From assembly GCA_001871325.1 (NCBI GenBank), contig MNVA01000098.1, forward strand, positions 1 to 42,499: a stretch of DNA of 42,499 bases, written 5' to 3'. This document shows, one piece after another, positions 6,609 through 17,013 of the stretch. The stretch's first letter is position 1, and every line of letters starts with the position of its first letter. Source of the stretch: Ignavibacteria bacterium CG1_02_37_35. Lineage in GTDB: Bacteria; Bacteroidota; Ignavibacteria; Ignavibacteriales; Ignavibacteriaceae. Both the position numbers and the translations under genes were made by a program. The notes beneath the pieces are model-generated. The model searched no databases, was not told the origin of the DNA, and saw nothing but the letters and a program-made list of their open reading frames with translations.

Positions 6609-7951
6609 TTATTTGAGAAGAATCATTTTCTTTGTTTGCATAAAATCCCCGGTTTTAATAGTAGAGAAATCTCTCCAGCATATTTCATCGCACTGCTGTA
6701 AGTCTGGTTTTTAGCAAGCAAAGCGCCGGTTATAACTGCCCCATCTCCTGATTCAAAAGGCCATTCTACAACAGCCGGGTTTGAAGTGCCTTCAATTTCC
6801 CCGCTGATAAGTACATTTTGGAGACAAACATATTTACCGGTTCTCATTACCGGATCGTTATCAACCCAAGGATAAATTCTAAAATAAAAAGTCTCTCCCG
6901 GGTCAACTTTTTCGTTTAAAGATATTGATACGGGTAAGAGATCGGTTATACTTAAATAATTGTTCACGCTATCCAAAGTTTTGTATTCAACTTTTGTTTC
7001 ATTACTAAACGTCGGATCGGTGGAGTAGTAGAACCCGGCTTTCATTGTATTTATACTTGCTGCGGCAATGCCAAGTGAAATGCCTGTAGCTGTAAAATTA
7101 AATCCTGCTTTGGGGGTAACAACAAACTGGATATAAACCGAATCTATTCGTGTAGTTTGATTTGCGGGCCAGGTATCTAATTTTAATCTTTGGCTTTGCC
7201 CTGGACCTGTGTATTGATTGATCTTCAAATTATTCAGCAATTCATCTAAAGCGGAGACTTGTCCCGATAGAGCAACAGTCGTTCCCGTTCCACCAATCCC
7301 CGGATCACTCAATTCCCACTTTGCACTTGCGGGATACGTAACTGCTTTCGTAGTTCCTGCGATTGTCGCCATTCTCATATAAAGATATTTTGATGTTGAA
7401 CTCGCTCCTGCATACCAGGGATAAACTCTGACGTAGAGAGTCTTTCCATCTACTACATCTTCATTTAATTCAAATGAATAGAGGGAATCAGAATCTTTTT
7501 TTAAGACAAGAATCGTATCGTTTAACTGTGTTGAAGAAGAAAAATTTTCGTCCAGGGAGAACGCTACATTTGCTCTTAAACCATCAGTTCCCTTGCCGCC
7601 AAGGTAAATTGATAGATTCTCAGCATGAAAATTAAACGACGCATTAGGAAGTACGGCAAACTGAACCCATCGGGTATTAACTTGTGTGGTTTCTGCTCCC
7701 CATGGTACGGCACTACCATTCTCAAAGGGCCACCATCTTTGATCCGGTCCGGGACCGTTTGCGTAATCACGTACAACAAAACCAGGACTGGATGTTTGAG
7801 TAAACCCGGATAAATTTCCTGTAACAGCGGATACTTTTTGACTGTCAGACAACGTCAAACTCCATGAGACTGAAGCCGGAGTTTGAGCTAAGATTCTTAT
7901 TGAAAAGAGCAACACCATAAGAATAAAATTCCCACGTAATGAGTTTCGCAT
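6609..7951 (-). pseudogene. Remnant of a T9SS-exported multidomain protein: two complete copies and the start of a third ~170-aa module, then an out-of-frame T9SS tail
   Basis: The ORF (track 6623..8017) ends ...MKYAGEISLLLKPGILCKQRK*; another frame through 6609-6680 reads DFSTIKTGDFMQTKKMILLK*. Confidence 0.75.
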
Positions 7952-8013
7952 AACTTTTTTCTTTTTGTAAAAATGAGTTGTCGTTTTTATCTCAAAAATA
8001 GTAATCAAAGAAT

Positions 8014-8772
8014 TCACTTGCCGCCAATTTGGATAGTAGGATTTTTTATCAAATATCTCGCAATCGGTAATTCAATTTCTTTAATTCCTTCGACCACCAA
8101 ACCGGCGACTAATACAGCTCCCTCAAAGGAGAAATGAGTATTGTCGGTTTTGCCCTCCGGTAAAGATTTATATTTATTCGGCGGTATCCATAGAAAAACA
8201 TCCTTTGTTTTGTCGTCTCCCAATTCAGCAAAAACTTTTTCACTTTTTTTATGAACATCAATTAAGGGAACATTCATCTGTACAGCAACTTCTCTGACGA
8301 CAGCAGGATAATCTCCATGTTGATCAACAAACTTTCCTTCCTTATCAAATTTTCTTCTGTTAACAGGAGTTAATAAAACTGGTGCTGCACCTTTTTCTCT
8401 TGTCTCGTTCACGTACTTAATTAAATTTCGTTTATACAAGGTATGTGCTTCTGCGTAGCGAGTGGTATCTGAGATTTTTTGGTCATTGTGTCCGAATTGA
8501 ATGAAAACATAATCTCCCGGTTTAAGTTTATCTAAAACGTTCTTCCATAACCCTTGCTGAATAAAACTTTTTGTGCTCTTTCCGTTCTTGGCATGATTCT
8601 CAAAAGTTAATTCATTACCAAAAAATAGCGGAAGCACTTGTCCCCAACCTCTTTCCGGGTTGTCTTCAATGGGTTTTGTCGCCATTGTTGAATCTCCGAC
8701 GAGATAAATTGTGGGATGATTATTTGTACTGATGAGAAGAGGAAAACAAAGAAAAATGACTAATTTAAACAT
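8014..8772 (-). CDS. Rhamnogalacturonan acetylesterase (CE12, SGNH hydrolase)
   Basis: YLVGDSTMA, GWGQVLP, NHAKNGKSTKSF, FIQFGHNDQK, DNTHFSFEGA. Confidence 0.9.
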   Translation of the reverse strand: MFKLVIFLCFPLLISTNNHPTIYLVGDSTMATKPIEDNPERGWGQVLPLFFGNELTFENHAKNGKSTKSFIQQGLWKNVLDKLKPGDYVFIQFGHNDQKISDTTRYAEAHTLYKRNLIKYVNETREKGAAPVLLTPVNRRKFDKEGKFVDQHGDYPAVVREVAVQMNVPLIDVHKKSEKVFAELGDDKTKDVFLWIPPNKYKSLPEGKTDNTHFSFEGAVLVAGLVVEGIKEIELPIARYLIKNPTIQIGGK

Positions 8773-9988: not shown

Positions 9989-11965
9989 TTATTTGTGATT
10001 AATTTTATCTTTTAACCAAAGGAAAAGATTTTCGGCGGCTTTATAATTTTCAAATTCTTTCGGCAGTTTTCTGTTATCGTAATATTCGTTATAAAACCAG
10101 GGATCACCAACAGCAAGAACAGACCCATTCCCATAATCTGAAAATGCAATAAGACAATTTTCATTATTTTCTAAAATACATTTTGCTGAAGCGGAGAGCT
10201 TGAGAGTACTGATCTCCTTCAAATAGATACTGTTTACCTTCTCGAAAATAGGATGAAGCGGGAAAGAATCAATTTTGCCCAAACTAAAGTTTTTCCCTAC
10301 AACCCTGTTTTTGCTATCGCCGTTAAAGTGTATTCCAAATTTTTCTGTAAGCAAATTAAGGTTTACGAACTCACAGTTCAAACTGTCGTTGGCAAAAACC
10401 AAAAGAGTTCCACCGTTGTGAACCCAGGAGACTATTTCTTTTCGAGATACTTCATCCAGATAGTTGGGCGTTAAATTTTCTGATGGGATATCAGGATCAA
10501 CAAGAATGTAAATTGAAACTTCTTTTAGAGCATTCATAGTTGGCGCAGTTTTAATTGCATTAAGAGTACCGCCCAATTTTTTAATAAGATTTCCTAATTC
10601 AGAAAACCCGGAGTTGGCGGTATCTTCCCAGGTGTAGTGAAACCGCTCCCCATTTTTGTTTTCATTGTTAAAATAATAATCTAATCCAACGCTAAATTCT
10701 TTTTCCCCATTATTCAAAGTCGAATCAGTAAAGGGGGGATTTTCTAATTCAATCGCCGATAAAATAAATGGACCATATCCCTTAAAATCATTTACTCTGA
10801 TTTTTTCATTTACGTAATATTCGTAGCTCCCATCACGGTATGGTTTGCCTCCCAAACCGGCGCCGGCACAGATATTCTTTAAATAAATAATTCCATTTTC
10901 ATCAACAGTAACAAGATTTCCAAGTACACCTTGGAATGATTCTTTTGCAAAATCATAATATTTTTTATCGAGGTAACCTTTGTTAGCTCCTTTGGCAAAA
11001 GCATAAATGAACATCAAAGAACCTGATGCTTCAAAATAATTCCCATCCCGATTTCCCTGATCAAGAACTTGAAACCAGAGTTTCGTTTTTACATCGCGGT
11101 ATTTAATCAAACTCAGAGAGAGATTTTTCAAAATAGTAATTAATCCAACTCGCTTTGGATGATCTACCGGGAAGTAATCTAAAACATCAACAAGAGCCAT
11201 GCAATACCAACCTAATCCGCGTCCCCAAAAATTTGGTGAAGTACCGGTAAGTGGGTCAGCCCATTTCTGTTTTTTCGATTCATCCCATCCATGGAAATAA
11301 AGTCCGGAGGAAGAATCTTTTAAATGAAGATCAATCAAATTGAACTGATTAAAAATATCATCGAACGCTTCATTATCGTCAAACAATAATGCATATTTTG
11401 CATAAAAAGGTTCACCCATGTACAATCCATCGAGCCACATTTGAGATGGATAAATTTTCTTATGCCAGAAACCTTTCTCGCTCGTTCTCGGTTGATTTTC
11501 TAATTGTTTTCTTAACCGTTTGGCTGCATTGAGATATTTATCGTCACGTGTTGCAGTATAAAGATTTAGTAATGATCTTCCGGGAGCAATATTATCAATA
11601 TTGAAGTCGTTGTACTTATATGTTTTTATATTCCCCGAACTATCAATATAGTGGTTGAGATTTTTTTTGATATAATCAAAATAATCCTTTTCTCCTGTCG
11701 TTTTCCACATTTGATAAAATGCTTCGAGGATAAGTCCCTGTTCATAATTCCACTTGTGACTTTTCTCTTCAGATTGGTAAGTGATTGAATCGGGATGCAA
11801 CTTAATGAAGTTTTTTATGATTTGCTCCGCAGTAATTTCAGAAGAGTACAATTTCGCCTTGCTCTGGCAAATCAAATCAGAATTAATAAAACCAAACAGA
11901 ATTAAAAATATCGGTACGAAGCGCATAAAGGAGAAAGAGAATAGTTCTAAATATTTTTTTCTCAT
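9989..11965 (-). CDS. Unsaturated rhamnogalacturonyl hydrolase (GH105/GH88-like) with C-terminal DUF4350-like domain
   Basis: MWLDGLYMGEPFYAKYA, NFWGRGLGWYCMALVDVLDYFP; C-terminal GGTLLVFANDS; ATGA overlap with upstream PL1 stop. Confidence 0.88.
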   Translation of the reverse strand: MRKKYLELFSFSFMRFVPIFLILFGFINSDLICQSKAKLYSSEITAEQIIKNFIKLHPDSITYQSEEKSHKWNYEQGLILEAFYQMWKTTGEKDYFDYIKKNLNHYIDSSGNIKTYKYNDFNIDNIAPGRSLLNLYTATRDDKYLNAAKRLRKQLENQPRTSEKGFWHKKIYPSQMWLDGLYMGEPFYAKYALLFDDNEAFDDIFNQFNLIDLHLKDSSSGLYFHGWDESKKQKWADPLTGTSPNFWGRGLGWYCMALVDVLDYFPVDHPKRVGLITILKNLSLSLIKYRDVKTKLWFQVLDQGNRDGNYFEASGSLMFIYAFAKGANKGYLDKKYYDFAKESFQGVLGNLVTVDENGIIYLKNICAGAGLGGKPYRDGSYEYYVNEKIRVNDFKGYGPFILSAIELENPPFTDSTLNNGEKEFSVGLDYYFNNENKNGERFHYTWEDTANSGFSELGNLIKKLGGTLNAIKTAPTMNALKEVSIYILVDPDIPSENLTPNYLDEVSRKEIVSWVHNGGTLLVFANDSLNCEFVNLNLLTEKFGIHFNGDSKNRVVGKNFSLGKIDSFPLHPIFEKVNSIYLKEISTLKLSASAKCILENNENCLIAFSDYGNGSVLAVGDPWFYNEYYDNRKLPKEFENYKAAENLFLWLKDKINHK

Positions 11966-14850
11966 TTCAAGAAGATCATTTTTTTCGTTTGAATAAAATC
12001 TCCGGATTGAAGTTGATAGAAATAAATTCCGGAGACTACATCGTTATTCTTTGTTGAAAAGAGGCTTTGATGTACACCTTTTGATTGATATTCATTTACT
12101 AACGTTGCAACTTCATTCCCAAGTACATCATATATTTTTAATGTTACATGACCACCAATTGCCAACTGCCAACGGATTTCCGTTTCCGGATTAAAAGGAT
12201 TTGGGTAATTCTGTGATAAATTAAAAGAAAAAGATGAATGGGAATTGTGAGTTTCGTTAATTGCAGCCGGATCTATTTTTGCGGCACCGGCATTCTGCAA
12301 TACAATATCTTTAACCGTTTGCGCATCAATTGGAGTGTAGCTATAATAGGAACGGGGATCAAAATTGTAGCCTGTTAAATGTTCAATCAACGCGCCGGAA
12401 TTGGCTGAATAATTAGCTATCGCTTTTACGAATCCCGCCGGATCTCCGCTCAATGTTTCACCGGGATCATTTACCGTAGAAATTAAAATTGGTGTCGGCG
12501 TATTTTCAAAATAATTTCCTTCAACTAACACCTGAGCTTGACACGTAACCCCAACTCCATACCCGCCATTAACTCCTGCGCTCGAATAGAGATTATTCAG
12601 AAGATGCGCTTTTGCAAATCTTATTCTCGGATGACGCGAATACGTACCGTCAAACCAATTTCTAAAATAAGTTACTCTCATTGTGGTATCCGAAAACTGA
12701 TTCGTTGTATGCCCGAGTAAACAGGCTTTTCTGTGATTCGTAAAATGATTATAAGAAACAGTAACGTTAAATGCACCGCTTTTTATATCAAGCAGACCAT
12801 CATGACTACTCCCCGATAGATCAATTGAAGGGCTATCGGTAAATGAACAATGATCAACCCACACATTACTGCTTCCATCAATAGATACGCCGTCTTTTTC
12901 ATCAACCTTGCAATCGGCAAATAAAATATTACGGACAATAATGTTTTTGCAATCTACGATCTTCATTCCAAAACCAAGGAAAGATGCGTCAGTTCCCAAT
13001 CCAATAATTGAAATATTACTCGTTCGCTTAATGGAAATTTCAGTCGAATAACCACTTAACACACCGGAAATAAAAATGAGTAACGGAGTGTTGATTCCCT
13101 TCTCCCTGGCTCTCATAATATCTGCAATTTGCTGGGCATTGGTAGCGATAACCGTATCGCCACCGATCCCACCGGTTGTTCCCCCATCAAGTGATGCAAA
13201 CCCGACAATGTTATTGGCATCAATTATTTCGGTCACTCCGATTCCAAATACAGCTAAGTTGATCGAGGCGCCTCCGCCGGAATTTTCAATAATTCCATTA
13301 TACGTTTTTAACTCTGTTGGAACAAATTTAACATAAATAATTGCGCTTGAAAGTGAATCTCCTAAATAGGGAAGATCAATTTTAGAAGCGAACCCGGTAT
13401 TGCTCAAAAGTGATACTTCAAACCCTTCAGGCGCAGTAACTGAAATAAAACCATCCTCCGGTGTGAGCAGCGATCCGGAGAGGCGATAATTTTTAACGAC
13501 GGTATCTTTGTTGGCAGTCAGATATCCAAAAGCAAGAAGTTCAGGATTGGTTAAAAGTGTTGCAACCGCTAATGTTGAAGTATTGCCGGTTCCAGGAGAA
13601 ACGATAAGATAATTCTGGGATTCATTATCGGTAGAATTGTATTCGTAAACTGCAAAATAATACTTCACATTACTGGAAAGACTAACTACTGTAATGTTCG
13701 TATCGCTTCCTTCATAAACTATTTTATTTCCATTTTCTCTATCTTCAGAAGCTAAATAATTATTTGAAACCCCGGGATAGAATTCTCCATCTTGTGGAGC
13801 CCAATCAACAGGATCCACGGATCGAATAACTAAAATCCTCTTTTCACCATCACCACCCGAAAAATTCACTTTTATTGAATTACCGGTAACTTCGCTGAAT
13901 GAGAGAGTAGATTGTTTTGTTGGTTCCTTCGATACCTGCGACCCAAAAACTTGTACTAATTTTGTAGGTGAACCATTACTTACGTGAGTAATCTCCCCGC
14001 CAAATGTTCCCGCAGAGAAAGCATTGAGTCTAACTGCTACCGATACAGGCTGTCCATCAATCACTCCTCCCGTTTGTGGAAGCGTTATTGGCAATAATGA
14101 AGTGTGCCATGTCGTTCCCCCGTCAACCGATATTTCAAAATTTTCCGGCGGGGTCATTACAACATTTTCTGTTAGATTTATTCCCGAAACCGTATAGATT
14201 TGTGGAGTTGATGCAGAATCAGGATACTGCAAAAATTTCTCTAAAGAATTAACGGAAGTAATTACAGAAACCATTGAATTGGTAGTACCAGAAATAACAA
14301 CCGAATTCGTGATCACATATTTTGATGTAGTGCTTGAGATGTACCATGGATAAATTCTTAAATAAAAAGATTCGCTGTCGTTAATTTGAATGTCTGGAGC
14401 TGCCGTTATGTTGGGAACACCCGGAGCCGAACTGCTTAAGGAAATTGTACTTCCTATTTGAGTTCGATTTGTAAAAGTCGAATCTTTTGAATAATAAATA
14501 TTTGCTCTCATTCCGCTTCCTGCATTTACGTATAGGAAGAGAGAAAGAGAAGAAACTGTAAATAAATTTCCCTGCGTAGGTGAAACTCTAAATTGCATAT
14601 ATCGCATCATGTTTTCTGATGATTCACCGGACCATGTCCCGGCGGTTCCCGATGGGCTGCTTCTCTGCACACTGTTTGCATAGGTTACCTGCATGTTTGC
14701 TAATAGTTGATTATCTGCCATAATGCTGCCTGTGGTTACGGCAGACTGGTTATCAATCAAATGCCAACTGCTACTGGCTGAATTCTGCGCCACTATACCG
14801 ACATTAATAAAAAGAATGATCAAGATCGTCGCGGTTATTTTTTTTACCAT
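11962..14850 (-). CDS. Pectate lyase (PL1-type beta-helix) with N-terminal module, FN3-like region and T9SS type A tail
   Basis: SNVWVDHCSFTDSPSIDLSGSSHDGLLDIKSGAFNVTVSYNHFTNHRKACLLGH; QNYPNPFNPETEIRW...GDFIQTKKMIFLK; signal peptide. Confidence 0.9.
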   Translation of the reverse strand: MVKKITATILIILFINVGIVAQNSASSSWHLIDNQSAVTTGSIMADNQLLANMQVTYANSVQRSSPSGTAGTWSGESSENMMRYMQFRVSPTQGNLFTVSSLSLFLYVNAGSGMRANIYYSKDSTFTNRTQIGSTISLSSSAPGVPNITAAPDIQINDSESFYLRIYPWYISSTTSKYVITNSVVISGTTNSMVSVITSVNSLEKFLQYPDSASTPQIYTVSGINLTENVVMTPPENFEISVDGGTTWHTSLLPITLPQTGGVIDGQPVSVAVRLNAFSAGTFGGEITHVSNGSPTKLVQVFGSQVSKEPTKQSTLSFSEVTGNSIKVNFSGGDGEKRILVIRSVDPVDWAPQDGEFYPGVSNNYLASEDRENGNKIVYEGSDTNITVVSLSSNVKYYFAVYEYNSTDNESQNYLIVSPGTGNTSTLAVATLLTNPELLAFGYLTANKDTVVKNYRLSGSLLTPEDGFISVTAPEGFEVSLLSNTGFASKIDLPYLGDSLSSAIIYVKFVPTELKTYNGIIENSGGGASINLAVFGIGVTEIIDANNIVGFASLDGGTTGGIGGDTVIATNAQQIADIMRAREKGINTPLLIFISGVLSGYSTEISIKRTSNISIIGLGTDASFLGFGMKIVDCKNIIVRNILFADCKVDEKDGVSIDGSSNVWVDHCSFTDSPSIDLSGSSHDGLLDIKSGAFNVTVSYNHFTNHRKACLLGHTTNQFSDTTMRVTYFRNWFDGTYSRHPRIRFAKAHLLNNLYSSAGVNGGYGVGVTCQAQVLVEGNYFENTPTPILISTVNDPGETLSGDPAGFVKAIANYSANSGALIEHLTGYNFDPRSYYSYTPIDAQTVKDIVLQNAGAAKIDPAAINETHNSHSSFSFNLSQNYPNPFNPETEIRWQLAIGGHVTLKIYDVLGNEVATLVNEYQSKGVHQSLFSTKNNDVVSGIYFYQLQSGDFIQTKKMIFLK

Positions 14851-14960
14851 GGGGTTCTCCGTTTTAGAATTGTAATTTGACTTGATAAGTCCAAAAATCG
14901 AGGAAAAATTTTAAGGGGAAAACTTACTTGCAGGCAATTCTTACAAAAAGATTTAAATAA

Positions 14961-14994
14961 AAAAGATTCCACCTTATGACAGGTGGAATCTTTT
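14961..14994. terminator. Bidirectional terminator hairpin
   Basis: aaaagattccacct-tatgac-aggtggaatctttt, 14-bp perfect stem. Confidence 0.88.
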
Positions 14995-15003
14995 TATAAG
15001 AAC

Positions 15004-15566
15004 TTATTTCGTTAACATCATCTTTTTGGTAATAGTGAAAGAGCCGGCAGTTAGTTTATATATATAAACGCCGCTGGTGAGATTATTCGCTCCGAAAGTA
15101 TGCTCATATCATGCACGTAACAATCCAGCACTTTAATTATCCCGATACTTGCAGCCGCCGCCGGAGAGCCCGCTGAATATTGAATCAAATGTAGTACAGC
15201 GGCAACTCCGCTTTGCTGTCCATCGAACTCAATTCCTTTTAATGTTAGAGATGCCCCATCGCTTAAGAGAAAAAAATTATGATTACTTGATCCATCGGTG
15301 ACTTTGGTCTCTCTTACAATTGGTTTTGCAGGATTGGTCGGATCATCAGTTTGGATGGTAAGTTTTTTATTGATGCTTATTACATAACCTTGAGATTCAA
15401 CATATTCTGCCCCCGGGATCAAGCGCAAAATATCACCGTCAACGGCAGCGTCAATCGCCGCCTTTAAAGTGCCGTCTCCAGGCACAACATCTATATAGTT
15501 TTGTGCCAATGTTATCGAGGTAAAAAGCAATAACATAAAGTTAATTGTGTAGAAAGTTTTTTTCAT
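15004..15566 (-). pseudogene. Internally deleted, frameshifted remnant of a secreted beta-helix protein (N-terminus plus out-of-frame T9SS tail)
   Basis: ORF (track 15051..15566) has signal peptide and beta-helix start, then VLDCYVHDMSILSERIISPAAFIYIN*; other frame at 15004-15103 reads TFGANNLTSGVYIYKLTAGSFTITKKMMLTK*. Confidence 0.8.
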
Positions 15567-15606: not shown

Positions 15607-17013
15607 CTAAAAATTAAAATAACTCTCTGCATTTTTATAGCAGATACCTTCGATTAGCGATTTCAACAAATTTTCATCATTAGGGATCAGACCATTTTCA
15701 ACATCCTTACCAAGAATATCACACAATATTCTGCGGAAATATTCGTGTCTTGGATAGGAGAGAAAACTTCGCGAGTCAGTTAACATCCCAACAAACCGGC
15801 TTAAAAGCCCCAGAGAAGAAAGTGCGTCAATCTGTTTTTCAATTCCGTTCTTCTGATCCAAAAACCACCAAGCACTTCCGAATTGAATTTTGCCGGGGAC
15901 GCTTCCATCTTGAAAGTTACCCGCCATCGTTGCAAGTAATTCATTATCCGCCGGGTTTAAATTGTATAAAATAGTTTTAGCGAGTTTATTCTTCGCATCT
16001 AACTTGTCTAATAATTTTTTTAAAGGTCTTGCAATTTCAAAATCACCAATTGAATCGTAACCTGTATCCGCGCCAAGCTTCTTCATCATTCTTGTGTTGT
16101 TGTTTCTTAAAGCACCGAGGTGAAATTGCTGTACCCAGTTTTTATCGTGATTCATCAACCCGAATTCATAAAGCATACATGATTTGAATTTGAGAATTTC
16201 AACCGTTGATAGCGCATCTTCTTTCAGAATTTTTTGAAAAATATTTTTTACTTCGTCTTCTGTATAATCTTCAGCATAAGGTTGTTCGATTCCATGGTCT
16301 GAAAGCCTGCATCCATTTCTATCAAAGTAGTCGTGCCGAAGTTTTAAAGAAGCAAGGTAAGTTTCGAAGTTTGTAATTTCAGAATTGGAAAGGGCTTCTA
16401 ATTTCTTTAACCAAACTTTGAATGATTGAATGTTTTCTACCGCCATACTTTTGTCAGGTCTAAATGTTGGTAGTACTTTTACTTCATAATTCTCATCTTT
16501 TAGTTGGCTATGAAATTTTAAAGAATCAGTCGGATCATCAGTAGTACAAATAGTTTTTACATTGAATTGTTTAAGAATTCCCCGGGTTGAAAATTCATCT
16601 TTTTTTAAGAGGTCATTACAAGTATCCCAAACTGATTTTGCTGTGTCTTTATTTAGAAGCAAGTCATCAATCCCAAATGGCTTTTTAAGTTCCATGTGAG
16701 TCCAATGATAGAGAGGATTTCTAATAGTGAAGGGAACAGTTTCCGCCCAAGCATCAAACTTTTCATAATCGGAAGCATTTCCCGTACAATATTTTTCGTC
16801 AACACCGTTTGCACGCATAGCCCGCCATTTATAATGATCACCGTTTAACCAAATGTGTGTGAGATTTGGGAATTTTTTATTAGTGGCGATTTCTTCAACT
16901 GGCAGATGACAGTGATAATCTATAATTGGAAGGTCTTTAGCAATTTCGTGATAGAGACGGATGGAGGTTGGTTTGGAAAGTAAAAAATTCTCTGAAATGA
17001 AATGTTTAGACAT
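15607..17013 (-). CDS. uxaC: Glucuronate isomerase
   Basis: DLPIIDYHCHLPVEEIA, GDHYKWRAMRANGVDEKYCTG, GSAWWFLDQKNGIEKQIDALSSLGLLSRFVGMLTDSRSFLSYPRHEYFRRILC. Confidence 0.95.
   Translation of the reverse strand: MSKHFISENFLLSKPTSIRLYHEIAKDLPIIDYHCHLPVEEIATNKKFPNLTHIWLNGDHYKWRAMRANGVDEKYCTGNASDYEKFDAWAETVPFTIRNPLYHWTHMELKKPFGIDDLLLNKDTAKSVWDTCNDLLKKDEFSTRGILKQFNVKTICTTDDPTDSLKFHSQLKDENYEVKVLPTFRPDKSMAVENIQSFKVWLKKLEALSNSEITNFETYLASLKLRHDYFDRNGCRLSDHGIEQPYAEDYTEDEVKNIFQKILKEDALSTVEILKFKSCMLYEFGLMNHDKNWVQQFHLGALRNNNTRMMKKLGADTGYDSIGDFEIARPLKKLLDKLDAKNKLAKTILYNLNPADNELLATMAGNFQDGSVPGKIQFGSAWWFLDQKNGIEKQIDALSSLGLLSRFVGMLTDSRSFLSYPRHEYFRRILCDILGKDVENGLIPNDENLLKSLIEGICYKNAESYFNF

Follow-up and report, generated by a model that had tools for sequence, protein, structure and literature searches.

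How did a reading frame that starts like a secreted protein come to overlap the out-of-frame sorting tail of a T9SS protein inside a pectin-degradation locus? We addressed this question in the window, a stretch of 42,499 nucleotides that forms the whole of one contig (C154) of an Ignavibacteria draft genome (242 contigs, 92% complete). An earlier, sequence-only reading had described two such remnants here and proposed that each gene had lost its middle, through either a recurrent deletion mechanism or a systematic collapse of the assembly.

Head frame and sorting tail

The ORF of 171 aa on the minus strand (15566-15051) has, as that reading stated, a signal-peptide-like start; in translation it opens MKKTFYTINFMLLLFTSITLAQ... 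and closes ...VLDCYVHDMSILSERIISPAAFIYIN before its stop. Searched against Pfam, it gives a partial DUF4957 match with an E value of 2.9e-4, which is below the cut-off. The overlapping frame, likewise reported earlier, translates as YEHTFGANNLTSGVYIYKLTAGSFTITKKMMLTK and has its stop codon at 15004-15006, the tail sequence being SFGANNLTSGVYIYKL...KKMMLTK. This tail corresponds to the last ~34 residues of the T9SS type A sorting domain (PF18962 / TIGR04183), which in full has ~75 residues, but under half of the domain is left in the window. Because the tail is this short and lies in another frame than the signal-peptide ORF, it cannot sort the head product. A tail-profile search of the genome did not detect the ~34-residue window tail.

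In a sister genome, G071, the end of a T9SS gene coding for 728 aa matches the tail with 90% amino acid identity across 31 codons. When the 728-aa protein was searched in the genome of the window, the window tail gave the top identity among 148 matches (77% over 39 residues), the remaining matches being 25-56% identical. Judging from the 90% identity and the conserved inverted repeat that follows, the orphan tail is real and no chance frame. The 15-bp repeat (14960-14995) is a probable intrinsic terminator of the 728-aa gene; it was not among the predictions of a simple terminator scan.

Table 1 Features of the scar and its neighbours in the window, and genes of the sister locus that are missing from it
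Feature	Position in window	Strand	Size	Evidence or remark
uxaC, intact left-hand neighbour of the scar	15607..17013	-		collinear with C77 1-1098; 84% aa identity, 362 codons
Head: ~155 initial codons, with signal peptide and part of DUF4957	15106..15566	-		77% aa identity over residues 1-155 to G071:C77:1178-1642
Deletion junction, TAT	15106..15108	.	3 bp	common to both C77 flanks; window compared with the two C77 flanks
Out-of-frame extension of the head reading frame within the tail gene	15051..15105	-		stop after SILSERIISPAAFIYIN; both frames translated
Tail: final ~34 codons, with stop, of another T9SS gene	15004..15108	-		blastn to C77 24262-24425
Perfect inverted repeat after the tail	14960..14995	-	15 bp	repeat search; also conserved behind this tail in C77
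Pectate lyase with T9SS tail, intact right-hand neighbour	11962..14850	-	962 aa	Pfam Pectate_lyase_4 and Por_Secre_tail; collinear with C77 24607-27495
Weak pectate-lyase-like protein			448 aa	missing gene; below cut-off
Two T9SS proteins			584 and 698 aa	missing genes; no other recognised domain
GH28			462 aa	missing gene
Pectinesterase with T9SS tail			1258 aa	missing gene
Pel9A-like beta-helix protein			651 aa	missing gene
TonB/SusC-like receptor			1098 aa	missing gene; below SusC/RagA cut-off
Protein of no matched family			732 aa	missing gene
PorV/PorQ-family protein			334 aa	missing gene

Collinearity with a sister locus and the junction

We sought intact relatives of the head gene in 80 genomes of the family. 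The full-length relative that the sequence-only reading proposed to look for in sister genomes is present in G071, one same-genus genome, where a gene of 453 aa (C77:1178-2539) stands at the syntenic place; G020 and G023 hold more distant intact copies. A scan of genome contigs gave distant matches only. The G071 protein has DUF4957, DUF5123 and a T9SS tail, and the window ORF has neither DUF5123 nor an in-frame T9SS tail.

We compared the whole sister contig, C77 (38.5 kb), with the window. Window 16704-15106 aligns to C77 1-1638, where the start of the DUF4957 gene directly follows uxaC, as the head does in the window. C77 24262-24425, the end and 3' flank of the 728-aa gene (C77:22180-24366), is the counterpart of window 15108-14952, and window 14717-8958 aligns to C77 24741-30498, which carries the pectate lyase, GH88 and LacI genes. 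Past 8958, the window continues with a GDSL esterase, a pectinesterase, KduI and UxaE. The two flanks, 16704-15106 and 15108-8958, thus have the same order and strand as in C77. The uxaC label (uronate isomerase-like) is taken from gene context and from the sister gene. In a separate observation, the uxaC-like protein is ~30% identical to the uxaC-like proteins of the equivalent loci of another genus (G017, G018, G020), as against 50-71% for LacI, GH88 and KduI, and because of this difference it is perhaps a non-orthologous replacement.

The 728-aa gene of G071 ends SFGANNLTSGVYIYKLSAGSYTITKKMMLTK, matching the window tail, whereas the tail of the intact DUF4957 gene itself, ...VSFNAGKLNSGVYIYRLKSGNKVLSNKMILSK and a stop, is absent from the scar. 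In G071, the tail, the 3' flank and the terminator belong to a gene ~21.8 kb further on. On this comparison, the head and the tail are from two different genes. A frameshift that fuses head and tail into one protein was also considered and rejected; no slippery heptamer was seen by eye, and the parts are unrelated genes.

On the minus strand, the window reads CATGATATGAGCATACTTTCGGAGCG across the junction. The sister head reads CATGATAT followed by TACA, with which the window agrees up to TAT, and the sister tail reads GTTTAT followed by GAAAAGAGTTTCGGAGCA, with which the window agrees from TAT on; 22,625 bp of C77 are absent from the window at this point. The upstream break falls at about codon 155, inside the DUF4957 domain, with no T9SS tail anywhere near. 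The breakpoints are read against G071 rather than the true parental sequence, so that the 3-bp overlap is relative to the sister, and because about 6% of random joins are expected to share at least 3 bp, this homology is suggestive at most. Of the earlier proposal that recombination between tail-like sequences had joined the ends at a microhomology, the shared bases (TAT) are found; the tail-like sequence at the upstream breakpoint is not.

The feature is very probably what a single large (or net) deletion left behind in a pectin-utilisation locus. The ends would have been joined at the 3-bp TAT by illegitimate recombination or by slippage during replication, and the join would have removed nine whole genes, including those of the TonB/SusC-like receptor and the PorV/PorQ-family protein; several successive deletions would have left the same final scar. 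That the tail is of the T9SS type would follow only from the abundance of T9SS genes in the locus and in the genome, where the T9SS tail profile has ~140 matches over the cut-off among the matches listed. The deletion put forward in the sequence-only reading is therefore supported by an intact syntenic relative, but as a multi-gene loss of 22.6 kb and not as the lost middle of one gene.

The missing block and its probable loss

In C77, the missing block holds nine complete genes of the pectin-degradation locus (Table 1), and with it have gone the greater part of the DUF4957 gene and almost the whole 728-aa gene. An 18.5-kb DNA query of the block against the genome of the window gave short matches only, mostly at T9SS tails. 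No orthologue of the receptor (best match 36% identical) or of the body of the 728-aa protein (best match 38%) was found in this genome, and GH28 had no match there in a single search run with no positive control. Since flank orthologues of G071 and this genome are 74-90% identical, true orthologues of the missing genes should have shown up. A relocation of the block within the genome was rejected, as the DNA, receptor, 728-aa and GH28 searches did not find it. With the assembly 92% complete, the missing genes could be unassembled or unbinned.

We also considered that the metagenome assembly had dropped the 22.6 kb through a chimeric join or a minor strain variant. Such an artefact would suit a draft of 242 contigs, many of which end at or near T9SS tails, but the two sides have 3 bp in common with no repeat on the head side, and repeat collapse does not make joins of this sort. 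Moreover, the flanks keep their order and strand and the tested pieces of the missing block are not on other contigs, and we regard the artefact as improbable.

In G020, which belongs to another genus, the gene order is DUF4957, receptor, a protein of 780 aa, PorV-like, GH88, UxaC-like and LacI, and a further genome, G018, keeps the receptor, a protein of 725 aa, PorV-like and GH88. Because these genomes retain the core order, the block appears to be ancestral in outline and to have been lost here; the sister G071 may have gained some of the genes. The head has 155 codons without a stop or indel and a dN/dS of 0.13, similar to the 0.06-0.15 of neighbouring secreted enzymes, which indicates that the block was lost recently, relative to the divergence from G071.

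Other remnants and consequences for the locus

The other remnant with an out-of-frame tail exists as described earlier: ORF 6623-8017 lies on the minus strand, and an out-of-frame tail, FSTIKTGDFMQTKKMILLK and a stop, ends at 6609. The ORF corresponds to the N-terminal ~430 residues, a third, of a T9SS protein of ~1200-1276 aa whose G017 copy carries a pectinesterase domain; it breaks near 6664-6676 and is followed by a ~19-residue T9SS tail in the other frame. G071 has no gene at the place of this remnant, between the GDSL esterase and the pectinesterase. As far as these comparisons go, the second remnant is a separate event in a different kind of gene. The mechanism suggested as common to both remnants is not supported, given genes of different kinds, separate breaks and the lack of a G071 counterpart of the second.

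We surveyed orphan tails in this genome and in G071 with a tail profile and with a tail pattern anchored at the stop; short tails fall below the profile, and the counts are lower bounds. Most tails are in long frames or at contig ends. Away from contig ends, the genome has at least five orphan tails (two in the window, C222:230-346, C222:709-888 and C33:7319-7492), and the sister has at least one (C86:5026). The region C222:1-900 is a degraded duplicate composed of a T9SS tail and ~89 codons from the start of an acyl-CoA dehydrogenase gene, the enzyme start sharing 90% identity with that of the intact copy at C222:8301, 7.8 kb away; by eye, a truncated transposase-like frame precedes it and a second tail-like frame follows. 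At C33:7319-7492, a spare headless T9SS tail follows closely behind an intact, same-strand T9SS gene, and the G071 tail at C86:5026 is a similar short spare tail. The orphan tails are decay scars of different kinds and not the outcome of one mechanism. Few in number away from contig edges and different in origin, they also lend no support to the systematic assembly collapse offered in the sequence-only reading.

Separately, contigs C74, C116, C138, C144, C161, C177 and C224 end within ~200 bases of a T9SS tail; because contigs end near tails, T9SS genes seem to be places where the assembly breaks rather than collapses. At C169:5600-6480, a subtilisin-like T9SS gene (labelled by eye) has an apparent single frameshift before its last ~140 codons and looks like a pseudogene or a sequencing error.

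A recurrent deletion by recombination between T9SS tails, acting on several genes of the genome, would account for the five or more orphan tails away from contig ends, but this scar joins two different genes, with its upstream break outside any tail, the scars differ in kind (a degraded duplicate at C222, a spare tail after an intact gene at C33), and the sister too has a spare tail; we consider it very improbable. Scarcely credible is an intragenic deletion in which a single DUF4957/T9SS gene lost its middle and left its own tail out of frame: a T9SS tail does occur on the intact relative, but it is another gene of the sister locus that the tail matches, together with its 3' flank and terminator-like repeat, and the genes between head and tail are also gone.

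In bacterial chromosomes, large deletions of the illegitimate or short-homology type are known to leave gene-loss scars in the form of joined pseudogene ends. The scar of this multi-gene deletion is one more instance: a few shared bases link two truncated genes in different frames, the flanks are collinear and relatives have the genes intact; it shows no difference in kind, the setting here being the pectin locus of a T9SS-bearing bacterium. A literature search on DUF4957/DUF5123 and on such scars returned almost nothing useful.

In the sister and in other genera, the locus resembles the SusC-type polysaccharide-utilisation loci of Bacteroidota, Chlorobi and Ignavibacteria in that pectin enzymes, many of them T9SS-tailed, stand beside a TonB/SusC-like receptor, whereas the window is without the receptor module. 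The sister receptor has TonB/plug domains and scores 62 bits against a SusC/RagA cut-off of 368 bits; no SusD match was found among the sister proteins scanned, and the neighbouring 732-aa protein matches no family. In Melioribacter roseus, CAZymes carry C-terminal Por sorting domains (PMC3534657).

Because the joined remains are out of frame, what is left is likely a non-functional product; from its sequence, we expect an exported fragment of 171 aa with no sorting signal and most domains gone. The case corrects a tempting misreading, in that a head with an out-of-frame sorting tail need not mean one damaged gene. It is a long shot that T9SS genes of this lineage are preferred end points for locus-scale deletions and that orphan out-of-frame tails mark lost polysaccharide loci; if true, orphan sorting tails would be readable as fossils of lost diets. 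The locus retains pectate lyase, GH88, esterases and uronate catabolism and is missing the receptor module. For this organism, the deletion would mean a clear functional loss after the split from its sister, the locus parting with its receptor module and several pectinases while other pectin enzymes and uronate catabolism were kept, a small, ordinary case of polysaccharide-locus turnover.
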